Positions 33,577-38,030 of a stretch of 43,239 bases of DNA are shown here, in pieces. Under the pieces are notes generated by a model. That model did not search any database and was not told the DNA's origin. It saw nothing but the letters and a program-made list of their open reading frames with translations. The translations under genes and the position numbers were made by a program. How positions within the stretch are numbered: the stretch's first letter is position 1; each line of letters opens with the position of its first letter. Origin of the DNA: Crocinitomicaceae bacterium (GTDB lineage Bacteria > Bacteroidota > Bacteroidia > Flavobacteriales_D > Sanyastnellaceae); assembly GCA_002720375.1 (NCBI GenBank), contig PBIE01000014.1, positions 22,102-65,340 of the forward strand, written 5' to 3'.

Positions 33577-33668
33577 TGGATGCGAACGGTTGAGATGCTA
33601 AAGTAATTCGGCATAAGCTGCCTCACACGTTCGATTCGTGGGCTGTGCCTTTCCTTTGCCGCTCGACC

Positions 33669-36116
33669 ATGTGGTCTCGGCTCGCAACCTTCATCCTCAG
33701 GGGACGCCTCCCCATCCTGCTCGTCCTCGCGGCGATCACGGCCGGTATGGCCATGCGCATCGATGAGCTCGGGATTCGCTACAAATTTGGCGGGTTGCTT
33801 CCAGATGACGACCCGGCCTTGGTGGCATACAATGACTTTTTAGATGAGTTCGGCGAGGAAGGCAACGTCGTGGCATTGGGCATTCAAGATGGGCGGTTGG
33901 ACTCATTGGAGGTGTTCCAAGCTTGGTGGCATCTGGATTCGGTGTTGCGGTCCATTCGCGTTCCCGTTGACAGCCTTCGGCCCGATGGAACGCGATGGGA
34001 TACGCATGTGGTCGACAGCGTTTTTGGCTTTCGGACGGCGGTGGAACTGGTGAGGGTGGACGACCCAAAATCCTTTGCTGTTGAACCCGTGTTTCAGTCC
34101 CTACCCGAGACCCAGGTTGATCTGGACAGTGTGTTACTGCGCCTGCGGTCTCTCCCCTTTTACAAGGGATTCTTGCACACGGAGTCAGGGGCGACCATCC
34201 AGATGATTTATGTCAATGCGCCGCTCTTCAATTCGGAGAATCGAGGGCGCAGTGTGGAGTTGCTGGTAGAAGAGGTAGAGCGTTTTGAGGCGCAGACCGG
34301 CGTGGACGTGCACGTTTCGGGTTTGCCTTATATCCGAACAGAGGTCACGACCAAAATCAAACGGGAATTGGGTCTGTTCATCGCCCTCGCCGCGATGGTA
34401 ACAGCCCTCCTACTGTTGCTGTTTTTTCGCAATGTGGTGGTGATGACGGTGTGCATGATGGTGGTCGGCACTGGTGTGGTGTGGTCACTCGGTAGTATTG
34501 TGCTTTTCGGTTATCAATTGACCGCCCTCATGGGCCTCATTCCGCCGCTGATGATTGTGATTGGCGTGCCGAATTGCATTTACCTGCTCAACAAGTACCA
34601 CGCGGAATACAAGCGACATGGCAACAAGGGCTTGGCGTTGACCCGCATGGTGCGGAAGGTGGGCAATGCCACGTTCATGACGAACGCGACCACAGCGTTG
34701 GGTTTCGCGGCCTTTATGTTCACCACCAGTGATGTGCTCCAGCAGTTTGGGGTTATTGCGTCGGTCAACATCCTCGCGATGTTCTGCATTTCGCTGCTCA
34801 TTATCCCCGCGGTGTTCAGTTGGCTTCCACCACCGCGCAGCAGCCATGTTCGGCACCTCGATCGTCGCTGGGTTTCCCTTGTGGTGCAGCGGTTAGAAAG
34901 GGCGGTGAGCCACCACCGCAGGGCGGTGTACATCACGACGGTGGCGGTTCTGATTCTGGGGGGCTTTGGAATTTTGCAAATCAAGGTGACCGGCAATGTT
35001 GCCGGAGACCTTCCTCAAGAGGATGCTATTCTCACCGACCTGCACTGGTTTGAGGACAGGTTCGGCGGGGTGATGCCGTTTGAAGTCATGATTGAGACGG
35101 ACAAGCCGGGACAGGTGACCCAGCTGGCGTTTTTGAAAAAGGTGGAGCAGTTGCAACGCATTCTGGCGGAGGAGTCTCAGCTGTCAAGGTCCATGTCCAT
35201 TGTCGATGGACTGAAGTTGGCAAAGCAAGGATTTTTTAGGGGAAACCCTTCTCGCTACGCGTTGCCAACACGTCGGGAGCAGAGTTTTATGGGGCCATAC
35301 CTGAGCGGCACCAGTGGCACAGGGGTTGATGGGGGCGGCCGATTTGTGGATGAAGCGAAGACCATCACGCGGGTGACGGCCCAAGTCGCTGACATCGGAA
35401 CCAGAGAGATGGGGGAGCTTACCGAGCGGCTTCAGTCTCGAATCGACTCTATTTTCCCGCCAGAGAAGCACAACGTGACCCTGACCGGCACCAGCGTGGT
35501 CTTCGTGGAGGGAACCACGTATTTGGTCAAGAATCTTCTGATCTCCCTGGCACTCGCCGTGTTGGTAATCGCCACGGTGATGTCCATTTTGTTTCGAAGT
35601 GCGAGGATGGTGGCCATCAGCCTGCTCCCCAACCTCGTCCCGCTCATCTTCACGGCAGCCGCCATGGGGTATTTCGACATTGCGCTTAAGCCCAGTACGT
35701 TGTTGGTGTTCAGTATCGCCTTTGGAATTTCGGTGGACGATACCATCCACCTGCTGGCCAAATACCGTCAAGAGCTTGACCTTCACGGCTGGAACATGCG
35801 GGAGGCTGTGCTGCTTGCTGTGCGCGAGACAGGGGTCTCGATGATGTACACAAGCATCGTTCTGTTTTTCGGTTTCCTGATGTTCTTCGCTTCTGATTTT
35901 GAAGGAACCCGGGCGCTCGGCATCCTCGTTTCCACAACCTTGCTCGTCGCCATGCTGACGAACTTGGTTTTGTTGCCTTCAATGCTACTGGGTTTTGAGC
36001 GTTACATCACGGCGCAGACTTTCAAGGAGCCGCTTTTGGAGATCATCGATGAAGAGGATGATGTTGACATTGAGGAGCTCACCGTAGACGTGGGAAACCC
36101 CGGTACAAGGGGATAA
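33669..36116 (+). CDS. MMPL/RND-family membrane transporter
   Basis: The 815-residue product has the doubled RND layout: a first helix (LPILLVLAAITAGMAM), a periplasmic loop (about 30-230), five helices (about 235-395: LGLFIALAAMVTALLLLLFF, VVMTVCMMVVGTGVVWSLG, LIPPLMIVIGVPN), then the second helix-loop-helices half (about 425-790). The second half has FGISVDDTIHLLAKYR, where the acidic pair in helix 10 is likely used for proton coupling. It is shorter than AcrB and lacks an associated membrane-fusion protein and outer-membrane channel here, so it fits the MMPL/hopanoid-exporter-like group, perhaps moving lipids. The tail is very acidic (IIDEEDDVDIEELTVDV). ATG at 33669 was preferred to a GTG eight codons before. 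TTCCTTTG (33651-33658), one base off consensus, ends 10 bases before the ATG. Confidence 0.9.
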   Translation: MWSRLATFILRGRLPILLVLAAITAGMAMRIDELGIRYKFGGLLPDDDPALVAYNDFLDEFGEEGNVVALGIQDGRLDSLEVFQAWWHLDSVLRSIRVPVDSLRPDGTRWDTHVVDSVFGFRTAVELVRVDDPKSFAVEPVFQSLPETQVDLDSVLLRLRSLPFYKGFLHTESGATIQMIYVNAPLFNSENRGRSVELLVEEVERFEAQTGVDVHVSGLPYIRTEVTTKIKRELGLFIALAAMVTALLLLLFFRNVVVMTVCMMVVGTGVVWSLGSIVLFGYQLTALMGLIPPLMIVIGVPNCIYLLNKYHAEYKRHGNKGLALTRMVRKVGNATFMTNATTALGFAAFMFTTSDVLQQFGVIASVNILAMFCISLLIIPAVFSWLPPPRSSHVRHLDRRWVSLVVQRLERAVSHHRRAVYITTVAVLILGGFGILQIKVTGNVAGDLPQEDAILTDLHWFEDRFGGVMPFEVMIETDKPGQVTQLAFLKKVEQLQRILAEESQLSRSMSIVDGLKLAKQGFFRGNPSRYALPTRREQSFMGPYLSGTSGTGVDGGGRFVDEAKTITRVTAQVADIGTREMGELTERLQSRIDSIFPPEKHNVTLTGTSVVFVEGTTYLVKNLLISLALAVLVIATVMSILFRSARMVAISLLPNLVPLIFTAAAMGYFDIALKPSTLLVFSIAFGISVDDTIHLLAKYRQELDLHGWNMREAVLLAVRETGVSMMYTSIVLFFGFLMFFASDFEGTRALGILVSTTLLVAMLTNLVLLPSMLLGFERYITAQTFKEPLLEIIDEEDDVDIEELTVDVGNPGTRG

Positions 36117-36122
36117 TCAAAA

Positions 36123-36146
36123 GCGCGCTGACGAAAGTCATTGCGC
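36123..36146 (+). terminator. GAAA-tetraloop hairpin after the MMPL gene
   Basis: GCGC (36123-36126), then TGAC-GAAA-GTCA (36129-36140), then GCGC (36143-36146) fold into a ten-position stem with one wobble and one mismatch, capped by a stable C(GAAA)G loop. It lies 6 bases after the stop. No T run follows, so it would not act as a classical intrinsic terminator; it may stabilise the 3' end or work with Rho. Confidence 0.4.
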
Positions 36147-36216
36147 CTAGTGACCCTCGTCATTCGAATTGGTTGTGGAAAAGGGCTCATTGTGAGCAAC
36201 GCAGTTCCATTGGCCT

Positions 36217-37140
36217 ATGATTTCAATCCTTCCTTCCTCTTCAATCGCAATGGGCCGGCCCGTAAGGATTCCGGTCCCTCACAGCCTCCGCAAGGCCATT
36301 CCCTCAAGCGACCTTGCGGAGGCTGCATTGGCCAACGCTATTCAAGGTGTCGGCATCCCCTGTCTTGATTTGACTCGCCTCTCCCGTGTTTTGATGGGGT
36401 GTGAGGGCCACGCTGTTCTTGCCGCACCACGCTGCTGGACGGATGCTCAACTCCGCTGGGCATACGTTGTTTTGCTTCACCATCTCGGCGAAATCAATGG
36501 CCATTACGGCAAACTCTTTGACTTGCAGGAACGAGGTGTGGATGAAACGCCCCTTGGCTCACTTGTATCCGGGGCGAAAGCGAGGACAGCAATGCGCACC
36601 GACAGCAGTGATGCCCAATACAACCCGGACTTGGTGGCCTTTCTCTGTCTTCAACCTGGCACATCTGAAGGCCGTATGATGCTCGCCAATGCGCCGGCGA
36701 TGCTCGGGCGATTGCGTCAAACCCGGCCGGAATTGGAGCCGGTTGCCCGAATGGCTTGGCCCTGTCACATGGATGCGACAAACTTGGAAAGCGAAGAGAA
36801 GGCCACGACGAACAATGCGATTCCCATGTTCTCAGAGGATGCAAGCGGATTCGTTTTCAGATACACAAGGTCCAAGACAGAACGCGCCATGGTGAAACTG
36901 GGACAGCGGGTGCCAGCAGACCTGATGCGGCTGTTTGATTTTATCGATGCGGATATGGAGGCCCACGCCATTCGATTCGAGCTTTACCGCGGCGAAATGC
37001 TCTTCGTCAACAACCGCGAGACGGCTCACGGAAGAGAATCCATTGACTGTGGTCCGGGTATCGACCATCGGTGTCTTGTGCGCTCTTGGGTGGATGGATT
37101 TCTGGATTCCCACGCGCCAGCCTTGTCTCGGCGGGCTTGA
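36217..37140 (+). CDS. TauD/CAS-like 2-oxoglutarate dioxygenase homologue with altered iron site
   Basis: The 307-residue product matches the TauD/TfdA, clavaminate-synthase-like fold. The first ligand region reads [24 protein letters not shown] (125-148), where active enzymes have HxD/E in an xHTDxxxxxxxPDxxxLLC frame; here Arg127 replaces His and Asp129 remains. The distal part is intact: [14 protein letters not shown] (263-276) with His271, then [10 protein letters not shown] (283-292) with the 2-oxoglutarate Arg. One base change (cac to cgc) would explain Arg127. So the protein may bind iron unusually, or have lost oxygenase activity. ATG at 36250 is a second possible start. rmlA follows after 17 bases and the prenyl synthase overlaps rmlA, so it is likely the first gene of that unit. 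Substrate unknown; a small molecule or sugar-related role is guesswork. Confidence 0.75.
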
Positions 37141-37157: not shown

Positions 37158-38030
37158 ATGAAAGGCATTGTCCTCGCCGGCGGAAGCGGCACCCGGCTTT
37201 ATCCGATTACCAAGGCCATCAGCAAGCAGCTGATGCCCATCTATGACAAGCCGATGATTTACTACCCCTTATCCACGCTGATGATCAGTGGGATTCGGGA
37301 CATTTTGATCATTTCCACGCCGCACGACCTGCCCGGATTTCAGCGGCTACTGGGCGACGGCAGTCAATGGGGCTGTTCTTTTACCTATGTGGAGCAGAAG
37401 ATACCCGATGGGCTCGCACAGGCTTTCGTCCTCGGGGAGGAGTTCATCGGCGACGACAAGGTGGCCTTGGTTCTGGGAGACAACATCTTCTATGGGAGGG
37501 GGTTTGGCCGCATCCTTCGCGACAACACCGATATAGACGGCGCGGTCGTCTATGCCTACCACGTCAATGACCCCGAGCGCTATGGTGTGGTGGAATTTGA
37601 TGAGGAGGACAGGGTGCTGAGCATCGAGGAAAAGCCCGTTAACCCCAAGTCCAATTTTGCTGTCCCAGGATTGTATTACTACGACAATCGGGTGGTGGAG
37701 ATTGCCAAGAACTTGGAGCCCAGCTTACGTGGAGAATACGAGATAACCGATGTCAACAAGGCCTATCTGGAGATGGGGGAGCTGTTCGTTTCCAAGCTTC
37801 ACCGAGGTACGGCTTGGTTGGACACCGGAACCTTCAGGTCTCTCACTCAAGCCAGTCAATATGTTCAGGTCATCGAAGAGCGCCAGGGCAGGAAGATTGC
37901 CTGCCTAGAGGAAATTGCTTGGCGCATGGGCTTTATTGATACGGATCAGGCCCGGAGACTGGCCGATAAACTGGTCAAAAGTGGTTACGGCCAATACATC
38001 CACCAGCAGATTGATCGCGGGCTCTCATGA
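37158..38030 (+). CDS. rmlA: Glucose-1-phosphate thymidylyltransferase
   Basis: RmlA makes dTDP-glucose from glucose 1-phosphate and dTTP, the entry to dTDP-L-rhamnose and other deoxysugars. The 290-residue product has the nucleotide motif [69 protein letters not shown] and [11 protein letters not shown]. Typical RmlA length. The ATG at 37158 starts at MKGIVLAGG; in-frame upstream sequence overlaps the dioxygenase gene. rmlB, rmlC and rmlD are absent from the window. The stop overlaps the next start by four bases (ATGA), so the prenyl synthase is coupled to it. Confidence 0.96.

Follow-up and report, generated by a model that had tools for sequence, protein, structure and literature searches.

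The TauD-like gene examined here encodes an arginine at the position of the first iron-ligand histidine, raising the question of whether it represents a new type of iron site, a protein kept for some other purpose, or a copy that has lost its function. Operon context, together with sites that are invariant across the order, makes it possible to tell whether an active site has been lost or newly formed, and corrects the tempting reading of a new iron site. The event is real but fairly ordinary: this is very probably a dead copy of a known family.

Arg127 in an intact TauD-like gene

The gene lies in the window, meaning the whole stretch of DNA analysed (43,239 nucleotides), and the features that define it are:

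36217..37140, + strand: orphan TauD-like dioxygenase gene, apparently catalytically degenerate (307 aa; from the ORF, PF02668 and AlphaFold2/Foldseek)
36595..36597, + strand: codon 127, CGC (Arg); relatives with sequence there have His, the first Fe ligand of HxD
37027..37083, + strand: retained C-terminal elements, distal His271 and Arg285/Arg289, in invariant columns

The preliminary description had proposed an intact reading frame and a TauD-like fold, and both are borne out. The ORF runs from ATG to TGA with no internal stops, and the protein matches PF02668 (TauD) over residues 88–291 with an E-value of 9.1e-14 and a score of 52 bits (cut-off 27 bits). AlphaFold2 and Foldseek together assign it a TauD-superfamily fold, a double-stranded beta-helix, with TtnM (7n7v) as the top Foldseek match. 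The predicted fold is like that of an HxD relative (mean pLDDT 76 for the window protein and 73 for the relative), and in both models pLDDT is low in the loop preceding the metal site, making them uninformative on alternative ligands. A GTG lying further upstream in a different frame was ruled out as the start; it is the ATG at 36217 that lines up with the start codon of the relatives.

The substitution itself is as first described. Codon 127 is CGC and codon 129 is GAC, giving a proximal motif of Arg127-Thr-Asp129 in place of the HxD Fe(II)-binding motif, which is absent from the window protein. The alignment column is unambiguous, with T-G-[MFY]-H-T-D-S in all relatives with sequence there, and T-A-M-R-T-D-S in the window; CAC to CGC is a single A-to-G transition. 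Alignment with the relatives located no HxD at any other aligned place in the window protein, so the R-T-D claim stands, and at the nucleotide level the body of the gene aligns without indels. The distal Fe-ligand His271 and the C-terminal Arg285 and Arg289 (RxxxR) are kept in invariant columns, in agreement with the earlier reading. His127, Asp129 and His271 would presumably make up the metal triad, and the arginine pair is taken to be the 2-oxoglutarate (2OG) binder, as expected for the family.

Distribution among relatives

Relatives were sought in the genus, in the family (114 genomes), in 399 genomes of the order and in 395 of the phylum. Sequence covering the site was available for 24: 11 from the same genus, and 13 that belong to further genera and families within the Flavobacteriales. 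HxD is kept in 24/24, including 11/11 from the same genus, and no further RxD members were found among the 395 phylum or the 114 family genomes. The phylum sample yielded no match besides the window, and a scan of named genomes returned only Flavobacteriales MAGs. The suggestion that close relatives might share the arginine was therefore answered in the negative: as all relatives keep His, there is no RxD family, and Arg127 is lineage-specific within the collections searched. Considered with the missing partner genes and the 18 other substituted residues described below, H127R has the appearance of a function lost in this one lineage rather than of a new iron-site type.

A conserved operon and its missing partners

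The surroundings of the gene comprise four features:

33645..36116, + strand: upstream flank, RND/MMPL-type exporter gene, syntenic in the genus
36129..36162, + strand: tandem palindrome TGAY-N4-RTCA N10 TGAY-N4-RTCA, operon leader site, 54 bp before the orphan TauD gene
36163..36216, + strand: deletion-junction region, where relatives have ~1.5 kb encoding a haem-oxygenase-like enzyme and a SAM methyltransferase
37161..38030, + strand: downstream flank, rfbA-type glucose-1-phosphate thymidylyltransferase gene, syntenic in the genus

The window gene has kept the conserved position, with the MMPL gene on one side and rfbA on the other. The same flanking genes are present in nine same-genus contigs, with neighbours mostly 75–92% identical, and by synteny the window gene is the orthologue of the TauD gene of the genus, to whose members it is 49–56% identical. 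In ten same-genus relatives TauD is the last gene of an operon, preceded by a haem-oxygenase-like iron enzyme (247 aa, PF14518) and a SAM methyltransferase (255 aa). The arrangement spans several Flavobacteriales families (examples are L015:8262-10689 in G006 and L026:6960-9414 in G041). At the order-level loci the methyltransferase adjoins TauD in 13/13, and within the 1.5 kb flanks examined the haem-oxygenase-like gene lies beside TauD in at least 10/13.

Both partner genes are absent at the window locus, where 36116 is the last position of the exporter gene and TauD begins at 36217. A search of the window's assembly (G000) found neither of the two; as this is ~65% complete, they could sit in unassembled sequence. 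The operon leader, which in the window runs directly into TauD, carries the tandem palindrome as TGACGAAAGTCA-N10-TGACCCTCGTCA at 36129-36162, and the same tandem pattern is found upstream of the operon in ten same-genus relatives. In this lineage a deletion probably took out the first two operon genes and joined the leader to the dioxygenase.

Variation at this locus is seen elsewhere in the genus. In G008 the whole operon has been cleanly lost, with ~50 bp separating the MMPL gene and rfbA (L030, G008:C3, between 168304 and 171679), which shows that members of the genus can do without it. The MMPL gene also adjoins rfbA in G003 (L032, G003:C313), where the operon may have another location, as a partial haem-oxygenase-like gene lies on a separate contig (G003:C415:11-385). 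Absence of the operon from G001 was considered and rejected in favour of a gap in the assembly, because two contig ends carry the beginning of the haem-oxygenase-like gene and the terminal part of TauD: contigs L029 (G001:C15 start) and L038 (G001:C27 end) break within the first and last operon genes. Contigs of G012 and G013 also end inside the operon, and strains that differ at this locus could account for the breaks in these three genomes.

Loss of other conserved residues

His127 is one of many conserved residues to have been substituted, and further features concern the remainder:

36502..36597, + strand: first degenerate segment, codons 96-127 (R96H, V103L, D105E, P116L, K119G, T120A, G125A, H127R)
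36676..36678, + strand: codon 154, ATG (Met); relatives have the Ser of GG-x-S
36763..36876, + strand: second degenerate segment, codons 183-220 (RDVxTPG to CHMDATN; YMRYW to YTRSK)

At the 49 order-invariant positions, defined as those invariant in 23 of the 24 relatives, the window protein differs at 19, and each relative at 0–2. A similar excess is found within the genus, where each sequence was left out in turn and invariance was taken among the other ten full-length members: such positions number 127 for the window, which departs from 31 of them, and the other members differ at 0–13 of theirs. By the same measure, the window's own neighbouring genes differ at 0–3%. Besides H127R and S154M, the motifs VSKTxAxTG, RDVxTPG and FRYMRYW are lost. 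Codons 96-127 account for 8 of 13 order-invariant residues lost and codons 183-221 for 8 of 11, the second segment including R183C, V185M, T187A, P188T, G189N, M217T and W220K. Compensating frameshifts behind these scrambled segments were rejected, the nucleotide alignment being without indels.

In related dioxygenases the position of Ser154 is taken by the GGDS/GGTS residue, as in the GGDS of gamma-butyrobetaine dioxygenase; this GGxS/T Ser/Thr is absent from the window protein, which has Met154 instead. From what is generally understood of the family, the serine is presumed to contact 2OG. With the first Fe ligand, this serine and three order-invariant motifs all substituted, no canonical active site remains. 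The loss of both the ligand and Ser154 makes Fe(II)/2OG chemistry unlikely, and judging from its residues the window protein is very probably unable to perform it.

The divergence of the gene is equally pronounced. The window TauD branch, at 1.11 substitutions per site, is by far the longest (0.20–0.45 in relatives), and the ratio of TauD to neighbour-gene branch lengths is 8.4 in the window and 1.9–5.3 in six of seven relatives; the seventh has a ratio of 12.4 and a very short neighbour branch. A codon-model branch test gave omega values of 0.11 for the background and 0.15 for the foreground; as the window's synonymous branch is saturated, these values carry no weight as to relaxed selection.

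An altered iron site, an artefact or an orphaned enzyme

Taken together, the window protein is probably an orphaned, catalytically dead copy on which selection ceased to act once the pathway had disappeared. Loss of the partners, presumably the earlier event, would have left catalysis without a use, and the active site would then have degraded; selection for catalytic activity would thereby have been released rather than redirected.

That the protein might be a working dioxygenase, in which another residue substitutes for His127 or activity is metal-free, is very improbable. In its favour, Asp129, His271 and Arg285/Arg289 are kept, but the change is shared by no relative, and Ser154 and the neighbouring motifs are lost too, which a ligand swap would not need. 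The preliminary description had asked whether another histidine, for example within residues 88–99, might reach the metal site, and this was not upheld: the histidines at residues 88–96 are unconserved or present in HxD-intact relatives, position 88 being variable, His89 occurring also in HxD-intact relatives, and His96 replacing an invariant Arg. A new or alternative working iron site in the window protein thus finds no support. Even less probable is an assembly or sequencing artefact in this metagenome-assembled genome. The assembly is fragmented and incomplete, and contigs break within the operon in several relatives; against this, the ORF is open and colinear with the relatives throughout, the changes are distributed along its length, and a single contig carries both syntenic flanks. 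Nor is H127R a lone base-calling error, because 18 more order-invariant residues have also changed, and the artefact reading is largely refuted.

The protein may be a retained pseudoenzyme, with its catalytic site lost and its fold selected for non-catalytic binding of a ligand or partner under the original operon control, although this appears rather unlikely. The ORF is intact with zero indels, the tandem operator is kept 54 bp upstream, and fold confidence is on a par with that of the HxD relative. The argument that an intact ORF speaks against simple decay has some force, as neutral simulation to the observed divergence, with indels ignored, gave a stop-free frame in only 7% of runs. Losses are also concentrated in the segments with catalytic motifs, most conserved positions elsewhere being retained: 19/49 order-invariant positions are lost, compared with 12/78 other genus-invariant positions (P=0.005), and losses cluster along the sequence, mostly in residues 96–127 and 183–221 (permutation P=0.007 and 0.026), although these signals of non-uniformity are modest and both segments were picked out post hoc. 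Without stops or indels, and with losses clustered at catalytic motifs, the pattern may thus reflect retention rather than plain decay, and suggests that the scaffold is still constrained. On the other side, the change is seen in one genome only, the window has the longest TauD branch by far, and the partner genes are gone. The fuller scenario, in which the metal site was lost after the pathway and the protein was kept under its old operator for a new binding or regulatory role, is unlikely. Under the favoured reading of an orphaned, disabled copy the protein may still be made, since fold and reading frame persist. Should selection turn out to maintain it, the protein would be a bacterial case of a TauD-fold pseudoenzyme whose origin coincided with the disappearance of its pathway.

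Comparison with known systems

The window protein shares with TauD/TfdA (PF02668) the fold, the Pfam match, the distal His, the RxxxR Arg pair and the Asp of HxD, but differs in the replacement of the Fe-ligand His by Arg and of the GGxS Ser by Met, and in the loss of motifs adjacent to the active site. TtnM, a hydroxylase of the tautomycetin pathway (PDB 7n7v), is the best PDB match to the HxD-relative profile (E=6e-13); it has an H-I-D motif, and its structural-alignment identity to the window model is only 15–16%. A further counterpart is the dioxygenase of the Flavobacteriales operon, of which the window protein is a syntenic orthologue with the same leader operator, but without the two partner genes and with 19/49 order-invariant residues substituted. 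A literature search found nothing on pseudoenzymes of the 2OG-oxygenase superfamily with a lost facial triad. Inactive JmjC-domain proteins such as JARID2 have a 2OG-oxygenase fold with substituted catalytic residues and no demethylase activity (PMC11241480); they belong to another family, and in JARID2 the substitutions are evolutionarily conserved and a regulatory role is known, whereas the window change is found in one genome. Paper searches found no description of the haem-oxygenase-like/methyltransferase/TauD operon, and this intact three-gene operon, which looks uncharacterised, may be the more useful lead.

The leader operator

The leader palindrome TGAY-N4-RTCA resembles TTGAC-N4-GTCAA, a motif proposed for HcpR (PMC1274295), and this resemblance suggests a regulator of the FNR/CRP type. 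The tandem palindrome occurs 1–5 times per genome in 15/17 genus genomes, and a reversed control pattern was found in none of the 17. Other palindrome sites adjoin genes for a nitric oxide synthase oxygenase domain, a carbonic anhydrase, a ferritin-like protein and DUF3575 proteins.
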